DNA of 39,735 nt, taken from assembly GCA_016936535.1 (NCBI GenBank), contig JAFGXP010000025.1, forward strand, positions 1 to 39,735, given 5' to 3'. Under the pieces are notes generated by a model. It saw only the letters and a program-made list of their open reading frames with translations. It ran no database searches and was not told the DNA's origin. The translations under genes and the position numbers were made by a program. How positions within the stretch are numbered: the first letter of the stretch is position 1; every line of letters begins with the position of its first letter. Shown in pieces: positions 9,626-29,134 of this stretch. The stretch comes from Thiotrichales bacterium. GTDB lineage: Bacteria; Pseudomonadota; Gammaproteobacteria; Thiomicrospirales; Thiomicrospiraceae.

Positions 9626-12247
9626 ATGCATCTCATATTTGTCATCGCGCTACTGGCATCCGCACTGTTTGGCGGTTACGCTTACATGAACAAGCCCATG
9701 ATTGAACCGGCTTGGACCAACCAAATTCCGGGTTTTGCCTTCTCCCCTTACCAAAAGGGCCAAAGTCCGTTTGATAACACCTTTCCAACGCCGCAAGAAA
9801 TTGCCAGTGATCTGGAAATCCTGTCTGGTAAAGCCCACGCCATTCGTACTTACAGTGTTGGCGGTGTGTTTGGCGAAATTCCAAAACTTGCCTATCCGCA
9901 CAATATCAACCTGACCTTAGGGGCTTGGTTGGGGCCAAATCAATTGGATAATGCAAGTGAGGTGAGTCGTTTAACCCAACTGATCGAAGAGCCGCCATAC
10001 AATGTTGTGCGCGCGATTGTCGGGAACGAGGCGTTGCTGCGTAAAGATATGAGCGAAGAAGAACTCACGCACTGGTTACGTTGGGTACGTTCTAAAGTTT
10101 CGGTTCCGGTCAGTACCGCTGAGCCGTGGCACGTATGGATTAAGCATCCTGATTTGGCTAAAGAAGTCGATTTTATTGCCGTGCATATGCTCCCGTTTTG
10201 GGAAGGAATTGCGCTGGATCAGGCGGTGGATTATATCGTAGATAAAATGCACTTATTGGAACAGACTTTTCCCGATAAACCGATTGTCATTACCGAGGTG
10301 GGTTGGCCTAGTAATGGACGTGCGATTAAGCAAGCCGAGGCCTCGCAAGCCAATCAGGCCATTTTTATGCGTCGCTTTGTGAGCCGTGCGCAAGAAGAAA
10401 AATACGTCTTTTATATGATGGAGGCGTTTGACCAGCCTTGGAAAAACCGTTTAGAAGGCAGTATTGGTGGACATTGGGGTCTGTATGACGTTGAACGTAA
10501 ATTGAAGTTTGAGCAAGAACAACCCATTATTGCCCACCCAGAATGGCGTTTCTTGGCGGCCGCTTCCGCGCTTTTAGCCATTATTCTGTTGTTGTTGCTC
10601 TTGATTGACAGCAGTGCCTTACGGAAACGCGGCCATACGTTTTTAGGTTTGTTGGCATTTGCGATTTCCAGCTTGGTCATATGGATGGTGTATGACTTTA
10701 CGTTGGAGTATCACAATTGGGTCAGTATTTTGGTTGGTGTCCTGCTGCTCATTGGCGTGGTTGGGGTGATTGTTGTGATTTTGGCTGAAGCGCATGAATG
10801 GGCTGAAGCGATCTGGTATCGGCAGCGACGTCGGCCATTAATTGAAATCCCGATTGGGCAAGGCTCAGCTCCAATGGTTTCGATTCATGTTCCAGCCTAC
10901 AACGAGCCGGCGGAAATGATGAAACAAACTCTTTATGCTCTTAGCCAGTTGGACTATCCGAACTTTGAAGTCTTGGTGATTGATAACAATACCAAAGACG
11001 AAGCCGTTTGGCGTCCTGTTGAAGCCTACTGTGCAGAGCTCGGTGCGCCTTTTAAATTTTTTCATGTTGCCCCCTTAGCAGGATTTAAAGCCGGAGCGTT
11101 GAATTATGCATTGGCGCGAACAGCTCCCGAAGCCGAAGTCATTGCCGTAATTGACAGCGATTACGTGGTGCGTCCTGATTGGCTGAAGCGCATGGTCGGT
11201 CAATTTAATGATCCGAAGGTGGCGATTGCTCAGGCTCCCCAAGATTATTCCGATTACCGACAAAATGCGTTTAAAGCCATGTGTTATGCCGAGTATAAAG
11301 GGTTTTTCCACATTGGAATGGTGACGCGCAATGAACGAAATGCGATTATTCAACACGGCACCATGACCATGGTACGTCGCTCGGTTTTAGAGGCGGTAGG
11401 GGGTTGGGGTGAATCGACAATCACGGAAGATGCTGAGCTGGGCTTGCGTATTTTTGAGGAAGGTTACGAAGCCGTTTACAGTGAGCAGAGTTTTGGTCAA
11501 GGATTAATGCCGGATACCTACATTGACTATAAAAAGCAGCGTTATCGTTGGGCATACGGTGCCATGCAAATTTTGCGGGAACACGCGGACGCCTTTTTGC
11601 ATTGGCGGCCAACAAAGCTGAAATCGGGGCAGAGATACCACTTTTTTGCGGGCTGGTTGCCTTGGATTGCCGACGGTTTCAATTATCTCTTTACCTTGAT
11701 GGCGGTGTTTTGGACCTGGTTAATGATTTATGATCCGATTCAATTTAATGCGCCAGATTGGAAAATTGCCTTGATTCCGTTAATTTTCTTTGGTTTTAAA
11801 ATTGTCAAAATGTTGGCCTTGTATATGGGACATGTTGGCGCACCTTTTGCCACCGCTGCAGCCGCCGCACTTGCGGGCTTATCCTTATCGCATACTATTG
11901 CTAGAGCGGTTTTATCCGGCTTATTTATTGGTCGAAAGATGCCATTTTTACGTACACCAAAAATGGCCGATAGCCATAATTTATGGCAAGCGGTGCTGGA
12001 TGCGTATGAGGAGCTGCTGATTGCATTACTGTTACTGGCCAGTGCCGGAACGCTTTATTATCATTTTGGCTTTGAAACCTTAGAAATTACCCTGTGGATT
12101 TCGGTTCTCATGGTGCAGACGCTGCCATATTTATCTGCGCTAATTTTGTCTTTTATCAGTGCGCGACCAAGCTTGCCGGGGAATTGGATGCGTTTTAAAC
12201 CACGTCCGCAGCCTGTCGAGCCTTCCACCCTTAAGGAGAGTCAATGA
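9626..12247 (+). CDS. GH17-GT2 fusion membrane protein, beta-glucan synthase type (NdvB-like)
   Basis: An 873-residue inner-membrane enzyme. After an N-terminal membrane anchor comes a periplasmic glycoside hydrolase family 17 domain (about 25-300) with both catalytic Glu: E135 in VGNEALLR and E224 in ITEVGWPS. Two or three membrane segments follow (about 310-390). A cytoplasmic family 2 glycosyltransferase then has VSIHVPAYNEP, DSD at 510-512, TED at 600-602 and QRYRW at 638-642. Several membrane segments close the protein. Pseudomonas aeruginosa NdvB has this same architecture and length and makes cyclic beta-(1,3)-glucans. The GH17 part would act as transglycosylase on the product. ATG 9626 has a perfect AAGGAGGGG. 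The stop overlaps the next start (ATGA). Confidence 0.88.
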   Translation: MHLIFVIALLASALFGGYAYMNKPMIEPAWTNQIPGFAFSPYQKGQSPFDNTFPTPQEIASDLEILSGKAHAIRTYSVGGVFGEIPKLAYPHNINLTLGAWLGPNQLDNASEVSRLTQLIEEPPYNVVRAIVGNEALLRKDMSEEELTHWLRWVRSKVSVPVSTAEPWHVWIKHPDLAKEVDFIAVHMLPFWEGIALDQAVDYIVDKMHLLEQTFPDKPIVITEVGWPSNGRAIKQAEASQANQAIFMRRFVSRAQEEKYVFYMMEAFDQPWKNRLEGSIGGHWGLYDVERKLKFEQEQPIIAHPEWRFLAAASALLAIILLLLLLIDSSALRKRGHTFLGLLAFAISSLVIWMVYDFTLEYHNWVSILVGVLLLIGVVGVIVVILAEAHEWAEAIWYRQRRRPLIEIPIGQGSAPMVSIHVPAYNEPAEMMKQTLYALSQLDYPNFEVLVIDNNTKDEAVWRPVEAYCAELGAPFKFFHVAPLAGFKAGALNYALARTAPEAEVIAVIDSDYVVRPDWLKRMVGQFNDPKVAIAQAPQDYSDYRQNAFKAMCYAEYKGFFHIGMVTRNERNAIIQHGTMTMVRRSVLEAVGGWGESTITEDAELGLRIFEEGYEAVYSEQSFGQGLMPDTYIDYKKQRYRWAYGAMQILREHADAFLHWRPTKLKSGQRYHFFAGWLPWIADGFNYLFTLMAVFWTWLMIYDPIQFNAPDWKIALIPLIFFGFKIVKMLALYMGHVGAPFATAAAAALAGLSLSHTIARAVLSGLFIGRKMPFLRTPKMADSHNLWQAVLDAYEELLIALLLLASAGTLYYHFGFETLEITLWISVLMVQTLPYLSALILSFISARPSLPGNWMRFKPRPQPVEPSTLKESQ

Positions 12248-21031: not shown

Positions 21032-21532
21032 ATGGCACGTGAAATAGAACGCAAATTTTTAGTACAAGGCACCGATTGGAAAGCTTTAGCACATCAACAC
21101 ACCCACTTTGCTCAGGGTTACCTTACGCCACTGCATGCTGGGGCAAAAAGTTCGGTGCGAGTCCGAATTGAAGGTCAGACGGCTAATTTGAATATTAAAA
21201 GTTTAGAAATTGGTCTAAGCCGTGATGAGTATGAATATCCGATTGCTTTGGCGGATGCTCAGCAGATGTTAGCCAAGCTGGCGGTTGGGCCAGTAGTTGA
21301 AAAAGTACGTTATTTTGTACGCGATGGCACCCACCTTTGGGAAATTGACGAGTTCTTTGGCGATAACCAAGGGTTGGTGGTAGCCGAGGTTGAGTTGGCG
21401 CACGAGCATGAAGCGGTGCGGCTTCCTGATTGGGTGGGTAACGAGGTGACGCACCAAGCTCGCTACTATAATATTAGTCTTTCAGAATATCCGTTCCAGA
21501 GCTGGAGCGAAGCCGAAAAACTCGGTCATTAA
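21032..21532 (+). CDS. CYTH domain protein (inorganic triphosphatase / class IV cyclase-like)
   Basis: A 166-residue single-domain protein starting MAREIERKFLV, the conserved ExExK entry strand of CYTH enzymes. VRVRIEGQTANLNIKS (near 45-60) gives the basic strand residues, and LWEIDEFFGDNQGLVVAEVEL (near 106-126) gives the acidic strands that bind metal and the triphosphate group. Bacterial short CYTH proteins are mostly inorganic triphosphatases; cyclase activity is less likely. No CHAD domain is attached. Confidence 0.88.
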   Translation: MAREIERKFLVQGTDWKALAHQHTHFAQGYLTPLHAGAKSSVRVRIEGQTANLNIKSLEIGLSRDEYEYPIALADAQQMLAKLAVGPVVEKVRYFVRDGTHLWEIDEFFGDNQGLVVAEVELAHEHEAVRLPDWVGNEVTHQARYYNISLSEYPFQSWSEAEKLGH

Positions 21533-21556: not shown

Positions 21557-22882
21557 ATGCAAAGTCCCATTAAAAAACTTACTCGTTTGCTTCTGATGAG
21601 CACGCTTCTTGGCAGCAGTGTCGGAGCGCAAGCCGCTACGAGCGGTCTATTGGATATCTATCGAATGGCGGTGGATTATGATCCAGTTTTATCGCAGGCC
21701 AAAGCCCAGTTTGCCGCGGATCAACAACAACTCAAAGCCTTAGAAGGGGGACTCTATCCGCAGATTAATGCCGGCTGGAATCTTTCGAAAACCGAGGCTT
21801 CTACGCAAAGCCGAGACGTTGGCAGCAGTGATTTAACGGTAACGGTCAATCAAGCGCTTTATCAAAATCAACTTTGGGCGAGAATTGATCAGTCCAAGTC
21901 GGCAGTTATTGCGTCAGAGGTGGCATTACAAACTGCTGAGCAAGCGTTGATTTTGCAAGTGACCGAGGCATATTTCGCCGTGCTTTTAGCTAAGCAGACG
22001 CTGGCGTTGTTTAAATCGAGAGAAGAGGCTGATCTTCTCCAACTGGAGAGTGCTAAGGCATCGGCAGAGGTGGGATTATCCAGCCAAGTTGATGTGTTGC
22101 AGGCGCAATCCAGTTACGACCTTTCTAAATCCAATCGAATTAATGCCGAAAACAGTCTTGATCTTGCCGAAGAGGCGTTATTAAAAATTACCGGACAACC
22201 CTTTGGTAGCTTGAAAGCCTTGCCATTGAAAGTCGAGTTACCCAGTTCTGTGCTCGATTTAACCGGATTGGAGCAACAGGCCCAGCAACAAAATTTGACG
22301 GTGATTGCATCACAGGCGCAGGCCGAAATTGCTCGACAAGAGATTGAGGTACAGAAGTCAGGCGATATGCCGGTGGTTGCCGCCCAAGCACGCTTTAATG
22401 ACACGCGTTATGATCAAAATACTTTTGAAGATTATTCTGGGGCAACGCTTGGCTTAAATGTTACCTTGCCACTCTATACCGGTGGAACAACCCAAGCCAG
22501 TATCAATGCCGCTCGGGCGCAAAATCAAAAAAGTTTAGAAGCCCTTCGTGCTGCAAAAAATCAAGCCCGTCTGGATGCGCGCTCGCAGGTTCGTAATATC
22601 GAACGGGGCGAGTCATTGATTGCTGCGCTGCGTGAAGCGGTTAAATCGAATAATGCTTTTTTAGAAGCGGCCGAAGAGGGCTATAAGGTTGGGTTACGCG
22701 ATTTGCTAGAAGTTTTTAGCGCCCGTGCCAATCAAGTCGATGCGATGAAAAATCTTTTGGAAGCTCAGCATAATCAAGTGCTTAACCGACTCAGATTAGA
22801 ATCGGTATTAGGCGATCTTACGCCAGAAGACTTGCAGGTGTTTGACACACTTCTCACCTCGTCGCCTGAAAATGCCTCTTAA
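21557..22882 (+). CDS. tolC: TolC-family outer-membrane efflux protein
   Basis: Outer-membrane channel component of type I secretion and multidrug efflux. A signal peptide ends near GAQAATS (residue 26), followed by the first outer-membrane efflux domain starting LLDIYRMAVDYDPVL. Long helices with heptad-like Ala/Gln spacing and the second repeat (from about 225) follow. LYTGGTTQASINAAR (about 312-326) is the typical segment before the second helical hairpin. No pump or adaptor gene is adjacent, as with E. coli tolC, so it may serve several partners. The start is uncertain: GTG 21545, ATG 21551 and ATG 21557 are in frame; 21557 gives the most normal signal peptide. The 3' end overlaps the next gene. 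Confidence 0.87.
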   Translation: MQSPIKKLTRLLLMSTLLGSSVGAQAATSGLLDIYRMAVDYDPVLSQAKAQFAADQQQLKALEGGLYPQINAGWNLSKTEASTQSRDVGSSDLTVTVNQALYQNQLWARIDQSKSAVIASEVALQTAEQALILQVTEAYFAVLLAKQTLALFKSREEADLLQLESAKASAEVGLSSQVDVLQAQSSYDLSKSNRINAENSLDLAEEALLKITGQPFGSLKALPLKVELPSSVLDLTGLEQQAQQQNLTVIASQAQAEIARQEIEVQKSGDMPVVAAQARFNDTRYDQNTFEDYSGATLGLNVTLPLYTGGTTQASINAARAQNQKSLEALRAAKNQARLDARSQVRNIERGESLIAALREAVKSNNAFLEAAEEGYKVGLRDLLEVFSARANQVDAMKNLLEAQHNQVLNRLRLESVLGDLTPEDLQVFDTLLTSSPENAS

Positions 22883-24461
22883 CGAAATTGATAAAGTTCG
22901 GACTGAAGGTTTGAGTTTTTCTAAGCGGCTTTTTACGCGTCGTACTTTGGTACGCAGCCTCTCGGTTCTTGCCCCTTTAGCAGGTGCTAATTTCTTGGGC
23001 GGCTGTTCATCGACTCAATCGGATGAGACTATTCGAATGGCGGTCAACACCCGTCCACAAATGCTTGACCCAAGACGAGCGACCGATGCGCTCTCCAGCC
23101 GTATCAATCGTTTGCTATACCGTTCGTTAGTCGATTTTAATGCCCATTTTGAACCGGTTCCGGATCTGGCCGATTGGCAGCAAGTCAGTCCCACCCATTA
23201 TCGATTTCGGTTGCGTGAAAGCAGTACCTTTCATCATGGTGGGGCCTTAGAAGCAAAAGATATTGCCGCCACTTACCAAAGCGTTCTCGATCCAAAACTT
23301 GGTTCTGCGCATCGCGGTGCCTTAAAAAACATCGAAGAAATCACCGTTGTAGATACACATACCATCGACTTTACGCTAAAAGAGGTCGATGCTTTGTTTG
23401 TAGGGCGCTTAGTGATTGGGATTTTACCTGCCGATTTAATCGAAAATGAGCATCCCTTTCATTTGCAACCGGTCGGTTCGGGTCCTTGTCGATTTGTTGC
23501 CATGTCCGAGCAGTGGTTAAAACTCCAACGCCTAAATGACCAGGTGCTATTAGAGTTTGTGCCTGTCAAAGAAGCAACGGTTCGTGTGTTGAAACTGCTC
23601 AAAGGCGAAATTGATCTGCTGCAAAATGATCTTTCACCGGAACTGGTGGCTTATTGTCGCCAGCAAAATTCGTTGCAGGTGCAGTTTCGTTCCGGCACCA
23701 ATTTTGGTTACATTGGTTTTAATTTTGCTGACCCGCTGTTACAGCAAACTGCCTTACGGCAAGCCTTGGCGCATGGGATTGATCGACAAGCGGTTATTGC
23801 CGCCATTTTTCAAGGCCAAGCTCGTTTAGCGCAAGGCTTGCTGGTGCCTGAACATTGGTGTGGTCTAAGCGATCTACCTGACTACGAATATAATCCTGAA
23901 AAAGCAAAACAGCTGCTGAAATCTGTACAGGTACCAGCTGAGCATTTAACGTTAAATAATAAAAATCAAAGGGTTATTAAGTTAAGTTATAAAACATCTA
24001 ATGATCCTACACGAATCCGTTTGGCGACCATTTATCAATCACAACTCAGACCTTTAGGCATTGAATTAAAGATTCAAAGTTATGACTGGGGCACCTTTTA
24101 CAACGATATTAAGCAAGGGCGTTTTCAGCTGTTTAGCTTGGCTTGGGTTGGCGTGAAAAGTCCTGATATTTTTCAATACGCGTTTGCATCCAATGCCATT
24201 CCACCCAAAGGCGCAAATCGTGGTCGTTTTATGGATGCCGAAAGTGATGCATTGATTGCCCAAGCACTCCATAGCCCAGACCTGGCTGAGCAGGCGATGC
24301 TTTATCGGCAATTGCAGCGGCGCTTACATTCGCAACTGGCCAGTTTGCCCTTGTGGTATGAAGACAACTATGCAGTGCAAACGCAGCGGCTTTCACCTTA
24401 TCCACTCTTTACCGATGGGCGCTTTGATGGCTTGCTTAAGGTACAAAAACGGGCCTCGTAA
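22872..24461 (+). CDS. Oligopeptide-type ABC transporter substrate-binding lipoprotein (SBP family 5)
   Basis: A 529-residue binding protein of the OppA/DppA type. It has an unusually long n-region with a twin-Arg (FTRRTLVRSL) and a lipobox LGGC with Cys45, so it is a lipoprotein that could use the Tat route. The binding domain starts MAVNTRPQMLDPRRA and includes YHFRLRES-like and HHGGALEAKDIAATYQSVLD elements around residues 110-135, the family signature region. The start overlaps tolC by 11 bases. With the two permeases it forms an uptake system for peptides or glycopeptides; the transpeptidase and nagZ next to it suggest murein peptides, as an inference. Confidence 0.85.
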   Translation: MPLNEIDKVRTEGLSFSKRLFTRRTLVRSLSVLAPLAGANFLGGCSSTQSDETIRMAVNTRPQMLDPRRATDALSSRINRLLYRSLVDFNAHFEPVPDLADWQQVSPTHYRFRLRESSTFHHGGALEAKDIAATYQSVLDPKLGSAHRGALKNIEEITVVDTHTIDFTLKEVDALFVGRLVIGILPADLIENEHPFHLQPVGSGPCRFVAMSEQWLKLQRLNDQVLLEFVPVKEATVRVLKLLKGEIDLLQNDLSPELVAYCRQQNSLQVQFRSGTNFGYIGFNFADPLLQQTALRQALAHGIDRQAVIAAIFQGQARLAQGLLVPEHWCGLSDLPDYEYNPEKAKQLLKSVQVPAEHLTLNNKNQRVIKLSYKTSNDPTRIRLATIYQSQLRPLGIELKIQSYDWGTFYNDIKQGRFQLFSLAWVGVKSPDIFQYAFASNAIPPKGANRGRFMDAESDALIAQALHSPDLAEQAMLYRQLQRRLHSQLASLPLWYEDNYAVQTQRLSPYPLFTDGRFDGLLKVQKRAS

Positions 24462-24466
24462 AAGGT

Positions 24467-24949
24467 ATGTGTGTACAAGTCATGATTTATCTGTCGTCCC
24501 AAACCTTAGAGGTTTGGCAGGATGCCGTTTGTAAAAAACGTTTTTTCATCAGCAGCGCCAAAGCGGGCAGTGGTAATCAAAAAAATTCCGGACAGACGCC
24601 ATTAGGTCGGCATTATATTCGTGCCAAAATTGGAGCCGGTGTGCCGGTAAACGGGGTCTTCGTTGGTCGCCGTTTTACGGGAGAAATTTACTCAGAGGCG
24701 TTGGCTAAACAGTTTCCGCAACGCGATTGGATTTTAACCCGCATCTTATGGTTATGTGGCTGTGAGTTGGGCCACAATCGGATGGGACAGGTGGATACGA
24801 TGCAACGTTACATTTATCTTCATGGCACACCAGATTCTGAACCAATGGGCGTGCCTTTGTCGCATGGCTGCATTCGGCTGCGCAACCAAGATTTGTTAAT
24901 GCTCTTTGATTGGGTGCGCTGGGGCACGGCTGTGGAGATTTGCCCATGA
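24467..24949 (+). CDS. L,D-transpeptidase (YkuD domain) without signal peptide
   Basis: Enzyme fold that makes 3-3 cross-links in peptidoglycan or attaches proteins to it. The YkuD motif is complete: H119-G-T then SHGC (His133, Cys135) within LHGTPDSEPMGVPLSHGCIR minus ends, with nucleophile Cys135. It is only 160 residues and has no signal peptide or membrane anchor. Most transpeptidases of this fold act in the periplasm, so export is unexplained; a cytoplasmic role on recycled peptides (L,D-carboxypeptidase-like) is one thought. The ribosome site AAAGG sits too close to ATG 24467; 24482 is the alternative. It lies between a binding protein and permease genes, overlapping the permease start by ATGA. 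Confidence 0.87.
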   Translation: MCVQVMIYLSSQTLEVWQDAVCKKRFFISSAKAGSGNQKNSGQTPLGRHYIRAKIGAGVPVNGVFVGRRFTGEIYSEALAKQFPQRDWILTRILWLCGCELGHNRMGQVDTMQRYIYLHGTPDSEPMGVPLSHGCIRLRNQDLLMLFDWVRWGTAVEICP

Positions 24950-25869
24950 TCGCGTTTTTGGTTCGTTTGATCGGCTCGGTGCTCTTGGTTTCCTGGGTGG
25001 TCGGGAGTTTGGTTTTTTTATTATTGCATCTGGTTCCGGGAGATCCGGTCGCGGTGATGCTAGGGGATTGGGCATCACCAGCCGATGAAGCTGTCTTGCG
25101 GGCGCAATTAGGATTGGACTTACCGATTTGGCAACAGTATTGGAACTATCTGTTTGCCTTGATGCAAGGGGATATGGGCCAGTCTTTGTTCTATCAGCAA
25201 CCAGTAACACAGTTGATTGCCGAGCGTTTTCCAATGACCGCGCATTTGGCGGTCATGTCGCTGTTATTGGCGGTGTTGATTGCCTTTCCATTGGGATTTT
25301 GGGCCGCAATGCGCGCGGGGCAGTGGCCGGATCGGTTGTCGATGGGGATTTCTCTGCTTGGGGTTTCGATTCCGAACTTTTGGTTTGGCCCCATGCTGAT
25401 TTTGCTATTTTCTTTGGGGCTAGGGTGGCTGCCGGTGAGTGGTGCTGAACAGTCCGGATCTTGGATTTTACCGACCTTAACCTTAGGAACGGCTTTAGCG
25501 GCCATCTTAGCGCGAATGTTGCGGGCTTCTTTGTTAGAAGTGATGTTTGAAGACTACATTCGCACCGCTCGTGCCAAGGGCTTAGCCGGTTGGCAGGTTT
25601 ATGGTCAGCACGCTTTGCGCAATGCGCTTTTGCCGGTGGTGACGCTGCTCGGTTTGCAGCTTGGAACCTTACTGGGTGGTGCGGTGATTACCGAAGTGGT
25701 CTTTGACTGGCCCGGACTTGGAAATTTACTCGTGGAGTCCATTCAGCGCCGCGATTACCCCGTCGTTCAAGCCTGTATTCTGGTCATCAGTGTGGCCTAC
25801 ATTACGGTTAATGCTCTCACCGAGTTGACCTACGCTTGGCTTGACCCACGTATTCGTCTGCCATCTTAA
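24946..25869 (+). CDS. ABC transporter permease, DppB/OppB type
   Basis: Inner-membrane permease of 307 residues with six membrane segments. The N-terminal LLHLVPGDPVAVMLG (about 24-38) is the DppB signature, and the EAA-type coupling loop is YIRTARAKGLAGWQVYGQHA (about 201-220), followed by LRNALLPVVTLLGLQLGTLL. The start overlaps the L,D-transpeptidase stop (ATGA), so translation is coupled. It pairs with the DppC-type permease 74 bases downstream. No ATPase gene is present in the cluster. Confidence 0.9.
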   Translation: MIAFLVRLIGSVLLVSWVVGSLVFLLLHLVPGDPVAVMLGDWASPADEAVLRAQLGLDLPIWQQYWNYLFALMQGDMGQSLFYQQPVTQLIAERFPMTAHLAVMSLLLAVLIAFPLGFWAAMRAGQWPDRLSMGISLLGVSIPNFWFGPMLILLFSLGLGWLPVSGAEQSGSWILPTLTLGTALAAILARMLRASLLEVMFEDYIRTARAKGLAGWQVYGQHALRNALLPVVTLLGLQLGTLLGGAVITEVVFDWPGLGNLLVESIQRRDYPVVQACILVISVAYITVNALTELTYAWLDPRIRLPS

Positions 25870-25943
25870 TTGGCTAAAAAAGGTGTATTTTCGTCTGCAA
25901 TGGCCAAGTGTCTATTTTTAACCCTTTCTGAGAAACGCGCCAT

Positions 25944-26753
25944 ATGATAGGAAAATTCAGTCGTTTGCTGTTAATTCTTTGGCTGCTAATGGCATTGGCC
26001 GCCTTCAGTATTGGCGATGAGGCAAACCGGGTTCATTTAGAGCGATTGCTGCAACCGCCCAGCATGGAAGCGTGGTTAGGAACCGATGAGCTAGGTCGTC
26101 CCTTGCTTGAACGCTTGCTTTTAGGCGCGCAAACTTCGTTGATTGTGGCTCTAAGCGTGGTCGGATTTTCGGCGATGATTGGCACCTTTATTGGTTTGGC
26201 CAGTGCCTATTACGGAGGATGGGTTGACCGCCTGCTGACGAAAGTGATTGAGGTGTTTTTAGCTTTTCCAGGGTTGTTGCTCGCGATTGCTTTGGCAGCG
26301 GTTTTGGGTCCTGGCATTGAAAACGTTATTTTTGCGTTGGTAGTGGTGGGATGGGTCGGCTTTGCCCGTTTAGCACGGGCGCAGACCCTCAGTTTGCGTC
26401 ATCGCGAACATATTTTGGCGGCCAAAGCGCTCGGCGTGCCGCACCATCGCATTTTAAGCCGTCATCTGTTGCCGCTGATTTTGGCACCCTTGGGGGTTGA
26501 GGCAACTTTTGGTATTGCAGGAGCGGTCATCGCCGAAGCCGGCCTATCCTTTTTAGGGTTAGGGGTGCAGGCGCCAGACGCGTCTTGGGGCAACATGATT
26601 AAAGAGGGAACTCGCTATCTGCTGGTTGCACCGCATTTGGTCTTAGCGCCTGGACTGGCGCTCATGCTGTTAGTCTTGGCGGTAAACTTACTGGGCGATC
26701 AATGGCGTGATCATTTGGATGTGCGTCTGCGCAGCCAAAATCGCACCAAATAG
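25944..26753 (+). CDS. ABC transporter permease, DppC/OppC type
   Basis: Partner permease of 269 residues. It has LGTDELGRPLLERLLLGAQT near 45-64, the DppC signature, five to six membrane segments, and the coupling loop EHILAAKALGVPHHRILSRH (about 152-171). The C-terminal WGNMIKEGTRYLLVAPHLVLAPG (about 214-236) is also typical. It completes the membrane part of the transporter; the ATPases (DppD/DppF type) must come from elsewhere. nagZ follows after 53 bases. Confidence 0.9.
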   Translation: MIGKFSRLLLILWLLMALAAFSIGDEANRVHLERLLQPPSMEAWLGTDELGRPLLERLLLGAQTSLIVALSVVGFSAMIGTFIGLASAYYGGWVDRLLTKVIEVFLAFPGLLLAIALAAVLGPGIENVIFALVVVGWVGFARLARAQTLSLRHREHILAAKALGVPHHRILSRHLLPLILAPLGVEATFGIAGAVIAEAGLSFLGLGVQAPDASWGNMIKEGTRYLLVAPHLVLAPGLALMLLVLAVNLLGDQWRDHLDVRLRSQNRTK

Positions 26754-26806
26754 CTTTCAAAATCCCATAAAAGAACGAAGATAAAAAAAGTATCAAGGAA
26801 AACAAA

Positions 26807-27877
26807 ATGGCGAGTAAACCGGGAAAGGCAATGTCACTAGGTTCAATCATGCTCGATGTACAGGGCTTGAGTTTGAGCGCCATTGAGCGCGAACAACTGT
26901 TTGACCCTAAGGTGGCCGGCGTGATCCTGTTTAGTCGTAATTTTGAATCAGCCGAGCAATTGCAAGCCTTAACCGAAGAAATCCACGCGCTGCGTCATCC
27001 GCGTTTGTTGATTGGGGTGGATCATGAGGGGGGCCGCGTGCAGCGCTTTCGTCATGGATTTAGCCGTTTACCACCCATGCGCTTGCTCGGAATGCTGCAG
27101 AAAGTCGATCCGCAAGGTGCACGAGACACGGCGCAAAAAATTGGATGGTTAATGGCCAGTGAGCTGTTGAGTGTGGGGGTAGATTTTAGCTTTGCGCCGG
27201 TGTTGGATTTGGACTATGGAGGCTCAAAGGTGATTGGCGACCGCTCGTTTGGAGCAAATGCCGAGCAAGTAAGCGATTTGGCTTTAGCCTTAATGAAAGG
27301 GATGCACCAAGCGGGCATGGCAGCCGTTGGTAAGCATTTCCCCGGTCACGGTTTTATTGAGGCCGATACCCATACCGAAATTGCGATGGATCCGCGTCCT
27401 TTAGCACAAGTTTGGCAACACGACATTCAACCCTTCTTGCGGTTGATTGAGCAGGGATTGGATGCGGTGATGCCAGCACACGTTATCTATCCGCAAGTTG
27501 ATGCCTTACCCGCCGGTTTTTCGCCCTTTTGGCTGACGCGCGTTTTACGCCAACAGTGTCACTTTGAGGGTGTGATTGTCAGTGACGATTTATCGATGCA
27601 AGCCGCCGCCGTTTTTGGCGAGGCTCCGCAACGCGTTGCCCGCGCCTTGCAAGCCGGCTGTGATTTGGTCTTGGTTTGCAACGATCCTGCTGCAGCGCAA
27701 CAGGTGTTGGCGGAACTGCCGTTTGAAGACAATTTATTGAGTCATGCACGCCTTATTCGATTGCATGGGCAAAGCCGTATCCCTTGGTCGAAGCGACACT
27801 ACTCGCCGCAATGGCAAGCCGCCATCAGTGCCCTTGATCATTTAAATGCTTGGGCGGAGCAGCACAGCCGTTTCTGA
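26807..27877 (+). CDS. nagZ: Beta-N-acetylhexosaminidase NagZ
   Basis: Cytoplasmic GH3 enzyme that removes N-acetylglucosamine from anhydro-muropeptides during cell-wall recycling. Visible are VDHEGGRVQRFR (71-82), the KHFPGHG loop (176-182) whose His is the acid/base, and SDDLSM (from 259) with the nucleophile Asp. At 356 residues it is close to the E. coli enzyme (341). ATG 26807 has AAGGAA upstream; a second ATG at 26831 would also include all family motifs. It follows the transporter/L,D-transpeptidase genes in the same direction. Confidence 0.95.
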   Translation: MASKPGKAMSLGSIMLDVQGLSLSAIEREQLFDPKVAGVILFSRNFESAEQLQALTEEIHALRHPRLLIGVDHEGGRVQRFRHGFSRLPPMRLLGMLQKVDPQGARDTAQKIGWLMASELLSVGVDFSFAPVLDLDYGGSKVIGDRSFGANAEQVSDLALALMKGMHQAGMAAVGKHFPGHGFIEADTHTEIAMDPRPLAQVWQHDIQPFLRLIEQGLDAVMPAHVIYPQVDALPAGFSPFWLTRVLRQQCHFEGVIVSDDLSMQAAAVFGEAPQRVARALQAGCDLVLVCNDPAAAQQVLAELPFEDNLLSHARLIRLHGQSRIPWSKRHYSPQWQAAISALDHLNAWAEQHSRF

Positions 27878-27943: not shown

Positions 27944-29134
27944 ATGGATTTCAGTATTTTTTTAAATTCGGGTTTTTTGGCCGAAAGCTGGCATCAACTG
28001 GTGATTTTGTTTGGTGGGCATGTCTGGTTATTGATGGTCACGGTGATTCTAACGGTGACGGCTTTAGCAGACTTATTGCAACGACGGGTGTTGACTGCTT
28101 TACACCGATATTTACAAAAACATAACAAGCGAGTATTTGACAGTTTTGTCGATGCGGCCCGCGCGCCTGCCTCTTTTTTTATTTGGGTAACCGGCACGGT
28201 ACTGGCCCTAAACACCTTGATTCTTAAGCTCGGTATTTATGTTGATTTAATTAAGCATATTAATGACTTTAAATCGACCATTCTGACCTTATCGGTTGGC
28301 TGGTTTGTGATTCGCCTGGTGCAACGTTTGGAAAGCTACCTAAAGGATCGCGCTGAAGAGGATGATCGCTTTGATCAGGTGATGGTTGAAGCACTTGCCA
28401 AAATCATCAAATTACTCGCGTTTGTCTTAACGGGCTTGTTTTTCCTCAATGCATTTGGCGTGAGTTTAACCGGCTTGTTAGCATTTGGTGGGATTGGCGG
28501 GATTGCGGTTGGTTTTGCGGCCAAAGACTTATTAGGCAATGTATTAGGCGGATTGATGCTGTACATCGATAAACCGTTTACCGTGGGTGAGTGGATTCGC
28601 TCACCAGACAAACAAATTGAAGGCACGGTGGAACATATTGGCTGGCGCATGACTCGGGTGCGCACATTTGATATGCGTCCCTTGTACATTCCGAACGGTA
28701 TTTTTGCCAATATTTCGATTGAAAACCCCTCGCGAATGACCAATCGACGTATCCATGAAACCATCGGTTTACGCTATGCCGATGCGCACAAAGTCAAAGT
28801 CATTATTGACGAGGTGCGTTCCATGTTAATTAATCATCCAGACATCGACAGCAGCCGCACACTCATTGTCAATTTCAATAACTTTGGCCCGTCTTCATTG
28901 GATTTCTTTATCTACACCTTTACCAAAACCACCAATTGGGTCTTGTTTCATGAGATCAAGCAGGATGTGTTGTTGAGAGTCTTAAACATTATTCTGCAAC
29001 AGGGCGCGGAAGTGGCATTTCCTACCCGAACACTTATGTTTGAGGGCAGCCATCCATTTGGCGGCCAACCCGGCACGATTGAAGAGAGTAAAGCACTTTC
29101 AAACCCCCAGTCCAGCGAAGCACAGCGTGAATGA
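27944..29134 (+). CDS. MscS-family mechanosensitive channel (YnaI/YbdG-like)
   Basis: Inner-membrane channel that opens under osmotic downshock. There are about five hydrophobic segments before the pore helix. The pore-lining helix is Gly/Ala-rich (GLLAFGGIGGIAVGFAAKDL, about 177-196). The beta domain has DKPFTVGEWI and EGTVEHIGWRMTRVRTFD, and a C-terminal alpha/beta domain ends near 375. The 396-residue length and the NIxIENPSRMTNRRI segment point to the longer YnaI/YbdG-like subgroup rather than MscS itself (286). Confidence 0.92.
   Translation: MDFSIFLNSGFLAESWHQLVILFGGHVWLLMVTVILTVTALADLLQRRVLTALHRYLQKHNKRVFDSFVDAARAPASFFIWVTGTVLALNTLILKLGIYVDLIKHINDFKSTILTLSVGWFVIRLVQRLESYLKDRAEEDDRFDQVMVEALAKIIKLLAFVLTGLFFLNAFGVSLTGLLAFGGIGGIAVGFAAKDLLGNVLGGLMLYIDKPFTVGEWIRSPDKQIEGTVEHIGWRMTRVRTFDMRPLYIPNGIFANISIENPSRMTNRRIHETIGLRYADAHKVKVIIDEVRSMLINHPDIDSSRTLIVNFNNFGPSSLDFFIYTFTKTTNWVLFHEIKQDVLLRVLNIILQQGAEVAFPTRTLMFEGSHPFGGQPGTIEESKALSNPQSSEAQRE

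Follow-up and report, generated by a model that had tools for sequence, protein, structure and literature searches.

Which solute is taken up by the peptide-type ABC transporter encoded in the window (the whole 39,735-nucleotide stretch analysed here, contig JAFGXP010000025.1 of a Thiotrichales bacterium), and why do its genes form one cluster with a YkuD-domain gene and nagZ? The window corresponds to C42, one of 49 contigs in a 2.12 Mb genome (97.5% complete). An earlier note, made from the sequence of the window by itself, had listed a lipoprotein binding protein, an L,D-transpeptidase, DppB- and DppC-type permeases and NagZ in that order and had suggested import and processing of murein peptides. 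Coordinates on the plus strand and family matches bore out the five genes and their order. The answer that we somewhat favour is that the cluster encodes an importer for peptidoglycan turnover fragments, likeliest (anhydro)muropeptides, together with the first two enzymes that would process them in the cytoplasm. The genes are as follows.

22872..24461, + strand: family-5 lipoprotein substrate-binding protein (SBP); Pfam SBP_bac_5, 209 bits
24467..24949, + strand: ElsL-like leaderless YkuD protein (hereafter ElsL), probable cytoplasmic L,D-carboxypeptidase; Pfam YkuD, 73 bits; NCBIfam ElsL, 194.9 bits
24946..25869, + strand: permease B, DppB/GsiC-type; Pfam BPD_transp_1, 148 bits; NCBIfam Opp2B, 355.6 bits, cut-off 350
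25944..26753, + strand: permease C, DppC/NikC-type; Pfam BPD_transp_1, 115 bits; NCBIfam Opp2C, 267.8 bits, cut-off 300
26807..27877, + strand: NagZ, beta-N-acetylhexosaminidase; Pfam Glyco_hydro_3, 275 bits; NCBIfam PRK05337, 465.2 bits, over its curated cut-off of 207

The ATG of the SBP gene (22872) falls within the final 11 bases of the tolC-type gene upstream (end 22882), and an ATGA is common to the start of permease B (24946) and the stop of the YkuD gene (24949). The remaining junctions are gaps of 5, 74 and 53 bases, so that the overlapping starts described before are found at two junctions (tolC/SBP and YkuD/permease B) and short gaps at the others. Neither the gene calls nor the Pfam scan revealed an ATPase gene inside the cluster, in agreement with the previous description, and a scan for promoters and terminators was uninformative (8 and 15 sites, where shuffled sequence gave 11.2 and 15.7).

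Conservation of this order in relatives had been named as a check on the first interpretation, and the order proved to be conserved. The panel comprised 58 genomes, namely our own, 31 from its genus, 5 others from the family and 21 others from the class (genomes, loci and contigs carry the prefixes G, L and C). ElsL was found in 35 of the 37 family genomes, the other two giving no match, and a strong match was obtained in 14 of the 21 other class genomes. Permease B begins less than 300 bp after ElsL in all 35 family loci, our own included; permease C comes after permease B in 33 of them, the other two running into contig ends. NagZ lies at most 2.5 kb downstream in 27 of the 29 family loci with room, and SBP is located upstream of ElsL in 28 of the 35 at a distance of up to 6 kb, no more than 400 bp away in 16 of these. 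The set recurs in other Gammaproteobacteria: G046 (L071) carries the compact run SBP-ElsL-permease B-permease C-NagZ, G047 (L086) the same genes spread out, and G051 and G044 SBP-ElsL; ElsL directly precedes NagZ in G038, and the two are adjacent in G055. The permeases stand with ElsL in G057, whose SBP is on a separate contig. A scan of species genomes with an SBP profile was also made, and the best 80 of 351 loci (the named loci) were analysed. ElsL was the next gene after SBP in 48 of the 75 named loci with room, ElsL and permease B both followed in 19 of 69, and the full run from SBP to NagZ was present in 14 of 52. Permeases and NagZ stand together in L157, L166 and L171, where ElsL was not found. 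The gene order is beyond chance.

Several loci show arrangements of their own. L157 (9932-15563) and L166 (9722-15467) carry SBP-permease B-permease C-NagZ without ElsL, and no real AmpG was found in their genomes; L102, L130, L143 and further loci titled Nitrospira or Nitrospirales carry SBP-permease B-permease C with no ElsL. Genes for radical SAM, Memo and AMMECR1 proteins stand between SBP and ElsL in L045 (5026-7661), with similar open reading frames (ORFs) in L046, L052 and L053. The same locus has a MOSC-domain gene on the opposite strand between permease C and NagZ (10131-10574), and ORFs like it occupy the same place in several family loci and are absent from the window. In L047 (2393-7767) and L049 (1958-7333) a run resembling an ABC drug exporter, composed of a secretion-type protein, a double ATPase and two membrane proteins, lies upstream of ElsL at the place of SBP. 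L136, titled 'Halobacteria archaeon', holds a gammaproteobacterial-type SBP-ElsL locus, and this bin is probably mislabelled.

Analysis of the recycling pathway indicated that the family of the window keeps recycling enzymes in genomes where AmpG was not found over its cut-off. The AmpG model (TIGR00901) was passed in none of the 37 family genomes, ten of which are single-contig and 99-100% complete; two distant matches of about 140 bits were seen (G023 and G031), and our own genome, 97.5% complete, gave no TIGR00901 match at E <= 0.001. Among the 21 other class genomes AmpG was over the cut-off in 18, with a lower match in G042, and the TIGR00901 search found no AmpG in G046 or in the 0.4 Mb G054. 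AnmK was present in 35 of the 37 family genomes (424 bits in our own) and Mpl was over its cut-off in all 37 (607 bits in our own). Since AnmK, NagZ, ElsL and Mpl are kept without AmpG, muropeptides should enter these cells by another route. AmpG was absent from 25 of 56 SBP-bearing genomes, the family of the window being counted as one lineage, versus 1 of 15 class genomes lacking SBP; this result (Fisher p = 0.0065) is only suggestive, being confounded by kinship, genome sampling and named bins whose completeness is not given. A 79-row SBP tree built with FastTree requires, by parsimony, at least 8 changes of AmpG; it is subject to the same confounders, has many weak forks and may differ from the species tree. 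AmpG was apparently lost on more than one occasion.

The YkuD protein had been taken for a signal-less transpeptidase that might trim or exchange peptide ends. It is 160 aa long, its YkuD domain spans residues 5-158, and it has no leader-like segment as judged by hydropathy only (peak 19-residue value 0.73). The best NCBIfam model was ElsL (7.6e-58, 194.9 bits, positions 7-153 of 164), the next model reaching 29.8 bits. The catalytic Cys motif is kept, reading SHGCIR in the window protein, and the Cys is present in 99 of 100 relatives, the remaining one ending at a contig edge; L116, at a contig end, was left out of this count. No solved structure was close to the ElsL class by sequence, the best match being 28.6 bits. 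According to PMC8649774, ElsL of Acinetobacter baumannii is a leaderless YkuD cytoplasmic carboxypeptidase that removes D-Ala from disaccharide tetrapeptides, and most reported orthologues belong to Gamma- and Betaproteobacteria. A search for LdcA (PF02016) gave matches in 2 of the 58 genomes and in 1 of the 37 family genomes; since LdcA was not found in our own, ElsL is the likely carboxypeptidase here, LdcV not having been searched for. The protein is probably an ElsL-like L,D-carboxypeptidase that trims peptide ends. An L,D-transpeptidase with exchange activity was rejected, as the protein is leaderless and ElsL-like; the absence of a signal thus survives from the former proposal and trimming is probable, and the transpeptidase assignment is replaced by that of a carboxypeptidase.

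The lipobox Cys was invariant in 29 aligned SBPs. A twin-arginine pair precedes it in family SBP leaders (window 22872-23010, L045, L048, L050, L051 and L053), which look like Tat-type lipoprotein signals; the pair is absent from some SBPs outside the family.

For the ligand, the position that anchors the amino group of bound peptides was compared. We take Asp408 of mature DppA to be the counterpart of MppA Asp439, with the same anchoring role; chain 1dpp reads GWTGDN at this anchor, and chain 8z1z, titled DppA D436R mutant, reads R. In MppA, Asp439 binds the free amino group of L-Ala, near Trp436 (PMC6022919). Alignment of 109 SBPs revealed that the anchor position is occupied by I (74), V (24) or L (11) and by Asp in none, and that the Trp three residues ahead is kept in all 109 (L133, whose SBP had been wrongly truncated to 18 aa, was left out of this count, of the SBP tree and of the cluster-type comparison given below). 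Replacement of the anchor Asp by I, V or L makes a ligand with a free alpha-amino end unlikely. In muropeptides L-Ala is amide-linked to MurNAc, and with NagZ adjacent the missing anchor Asp fits a muropeptide cargo. As judged from these residues, the cargo is more likely a sugar-linked muropeptide than a free murein peptide, because the amino-anchoring residue of MppA is absent from SBP. What was suggested earlier as import and processing of murein peptides retains a likely role in peptidoglycan recycling, with the cargo changed to a sugar-linked one. Fold searches with the predicted structure of SBP (mean pLDDT 88) returned family-5 SBPs for a wide range of ligands; binders of nickel, opines and sialic acid share its fold, NikZ and DppA being among the structural neighbours, and since their scores are close the fold search does not tell the ligand.

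Peptide-type ATPases were sought in the genome by their oligo_HPY tail. A single such gene was found in our own genome, C49:49431-51101. Its product, about 557 aa long, has two ATPase units fused and matches YejF best (599 bits, below the cut-off of 834). The ATPase missing from the cluster, whose search the earlier note had advised, has a candidate in this gene. The gene belongs to a second peptide-importer operon, whose 752-aa SBP is interrupted by the end of C10; permease B2 (truncated by the contig end), permease C2 and the fused ATPase are on C49. These genes are contiguous in G019 and G026, and the fused ATPase closes the operon. A match to the fused ATPase was obtained in all 37 family genomes, in some of them in parts. 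The proposition that every SBP genome has one ATPase gene was rejected, as it is true in only 17 of 24 (15 with a single fused gene, 2 with an adjacent pair). Among the other seven, G047, G062, G063, G065 and G068 carry additional genes or pieces, G061 has one piece on each of two contigs, and in G044 (75% complete) no peptide-type ATPase was found. In L099, L121, L134, L136 and L158 the strand that carries the SBP gene also bears an ATPase match (53-64% identity), some 7 to 9 kb upstream of that gene; in L121, L134 and L158 this match is a fused protein of 668-669 aa. The simplest reading would be that one ATPase is common to both permease pairs. A homologue of the fused ATPase (E <= 1e-90) without any orthologue of the window-type SBP was seen in six class genomes, all of which keep AmpG; small as the numbers are, this points to the SBP module and away from the operon to which the ATPase belongs.

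Around the fused ATPase gene itself (G000:C49:47900-51100; L176, 7167-11228), a possible mupP gene converges on it in our own genome, G019 and G026 and not in G032. The HAD phosphatase concerned scored 161.5 bits with a phosphoglycolate phosphatase model and 151.7 bits with MupP, both below cut-off, and the converging neighbours are presumably yciK, this HAD phosphatase and ubiG. Tandem fused double ATPases end a peptide-importer operon in L225 (5541-9277) and L226 (4649-8368), from G063 and G065, with sizes of 576 and 668 aa and of 560 and 676 aa. Two genomes with Nitrospira/Nitrospirales titles were examined (L228, L233), and in both another operon holds a pair of separate ATPase genes.

Taken as a working scheme, the lipoprotein SBP would catch the fragment in the periplasm and deliver it to permeases B and C, uptake being powered by the fused two-domain ATPase encoded in the second peptide-importer operon. 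Inside the cell NagZ would remove GlcNAc, ElsL would remove the terminal D-Ala of the tetrapeptide to leave a tripeptide reusable by Mpl, and AnmK would take the anhydro-sugar. The ligand, the direction of transport, the sharing of the ATPase and the cytoplasmic place and activity of ElsL are what we infer in this scheme. In the family of the window the importer would replace AmpG, and elsewhere it would often coexist with it.

Other cargoes were weighed against muropeptides. The cargo might be free murein peptides, L-Ala-D-Glu-mDap alone or extended by D-Ala, imported in the manner of MppA-Opp after their release by a periplasmic amidase, with ElsL trimming them inside and NagZ a mere neighbour. 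The placement of ElsL between SBP and the permeases agrees with this, and a different cargo would suit the frequent coexistence with AmpG. Yet the Asp by which MppA binds the amino group of L-Ala (PMC6022919) is I, V or L in every one of the 109 SBPs, NagZ would be left without a role despite its place downstream in 27 of 29 family loci, and L157, L166 and L171 keep the permeases with NagZ where ElsL was not found; we regard free peptides as an unlikely cargo. Alternatively, the cargo might have nothing to do with the wall, nickel complexes or dipeptides for example, with the recycling genes as neighbours by chance or co-regulation; a substrate of this kind had been named earlier as what would overturn the proposal. 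NikZ and DppA are among the structural neighbours, permease B passes the Opp2B cut-off and the best model of permease C is Opp2C. However, SBP scored far under the curated cut-offs of DppA (126 of 1005) and NikA (124 of 393) and lacks the DppA Asp, and many lineages keep the transporter genes linked to ElsL and NagZ; such a substrate has become less likely, and we consider it very improbable.

Muropeptides might instead enter via the second operon, with its large SBP, permeases B2 and C2 and fused ATPase, as through YejBEF in Agrobacterium, the transporter of the window carrying some other cargo. This operon holds the only peptide-type ATPase gene found, with YejF as best family and a match in 37 of 37 family genomes. 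Its SBP, however, keeps Asp at the amino-anchor position in our own genome, G026 and G057 (not in G063), as binders of free peptides do, and the six class genomes that have the ATPase homologue without the window-type SBP all retain AmpG. ElsL and NagZ are linked to the transporter of the window; the loci mapped around the second operon showed neither of them. Entry by that operon is, in our judgement, quite unlikely.

A number of observations weigh against muropeptide import by the cluster. The second peptide-type importer of our own genome could do the same job, and the cluster is a candidate importer whose transport is predicted. Permease B passes the Opp2B cut-off (NCBIfam 'nickel ABC transporter permease'), which slightly lowers the odds of muropeptide import and of the second importer class considered below, and slightly raises those of an unrelated solute; permease C stays under that of Opp2C. 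The ElsL score is below 270, the curated cut-off of this exception-type model. Four family loci (L047, L049, L056 and L069) have no SBP upstream despite ample sequence. Among the named loci, 12 of 69 have permease B after SBP but no ElsL (nine of the 12 are titled Nitrospira or Nitrospirales), and neither ElsL nor permease B stands beside SBP in 15 of 75, which include Thiotrichaceae, Thiomargarita and Thioploca bins. AmpG occurs in 5 of the 6 SBP-bearing class genomes of the panel outside the family. The AmpG search covered 50 of the 80 named loci (L107, L153, L155, L174 and 26 others were left out); AmpG was over the cut-off in 22 of these genomes and weak or split in 4 (G063, G087, G088 and G107), giving 26 of 50, and 24 had no match worth counting (one has a 22-bit match; the completeness of these genomes is not given). 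SBP system and AmpG thus coexist in about half of the SBP-bearing genomes, and strict replacement of AmpG everywhere was rejected on this count. Cluster type and absence of AmpG showed no link among the 50 genomes: with weak or split matches counted as present, the numbers without and with AmpG were 11 and 9 for SBP-ElsL-permeases, 5 and 12 for SBP-ElsL, 2 and 4 for SBP-permeases, and 6 and 1 for SBP alone.

On the same strand the cluster is preceded by cysM, a CYTH-domain gene and tolC and followed by an mscS gene.

21032..21532, + strand: CYTH-domain gene, neighbour also in named loci; Pfam CYTH, 67.5 bits
21545..22882, + strand: tolC-type gene, conserved neighbour in the family; TIGR01844, 241.8 bits, cut-off 225
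27944..29134, + strand: mscS-type gene, conserved neighbour; Pfam MS_channel_2nd, 67 bits

The CYTH-domain gene, which would link a triphosphatase-type domain to the SBP system, was found in 32 and cysM in 20 of the 80 named SBP loci, often directly upstream of SBP.

No description of this gene cluster was found in the literature search. The earlier statement that no system of this make-up had been described stands for the set of genes in the literature searched, the ElsL enzyme class having already been described. It is possible, though short of probable, that the cluster represents a second class of ABC muropeptide importer, unlike YejBEF-YepA, which has replaced AmpG in whole lineages: an ATPase-less SBP-permease module with ElsL and NagZ, driven in trans by a fused ATPase that belongs to another peptide importer, widespread in Gammaproteobacteria and also present in bins with Nitrospira or Nitrospirales titles. 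For fragment recovery in AmpG-lacking bacteria outside the Alphaproteobacteria, of which the literature searched held no description, the cluster is a concrete candidate. It offers SBP, the permease pair and the ATPase as testable candidates, gives ElsL a transporter partner, and is a case of two permease pairs seemingly served by one ATPase.

Compared with known systems, the cluster shares with AmpG the proposed cargo and place in the pathway; AmpG is a single major-facilitator protein, unrelated to ABC importers and not found in the family of the window. With MppA-Opp of E. coli, which imports murein tripeptide, it shares a family-5 SBP, DppB/DppC-type permeases and, as proposed here, a murein-derived cargo, but the Asp439 that binds the free amino group in MppA (PMC6022919) is replaced here in 109 of 109 SBPs. 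ElsL of A. baumannii is likewise a leaderless YkuD protein with the catalytic Cys motif in a species without LdcA; there, however, AmpG works with ElsL, and the terms 'ABC transporter' and 'NagZ' occur nowhere in the main text of the paper (PMC8649774). The closest parallel is YejBEF-YepA, which deletion, analysis of muropeptides and AmpG complementation established as the importer of muropeptides in A. tumefaciens (PMC9790009). The cluster resembles it in a family-5 SBP, two BPD permeases, lack of AmpG, an SBP gene away from the ATPase gene, coexistence with AmpG in some species and, as proposed here, a fused double ATPase and a muropeptide cargo. A. tumefaciens is reported there to have no L,D-carboxypeptidase or Mpl (PMC9790009), whereas ElsL and NagZ lie inside our cluster, Mpl is present and transport is predicted only. 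The system of the window would work like YejBEF-YepA without being a member of it, because its permeases score far under the YejB (115.5 of 445) and YejE (106.2 of 439) models and YepA is reported from Alphaproteobacteria only (PMC9790009). Set beside these systems, the cluster is a combination of known parts, unusual and widely conserved, with a strong candidate role.

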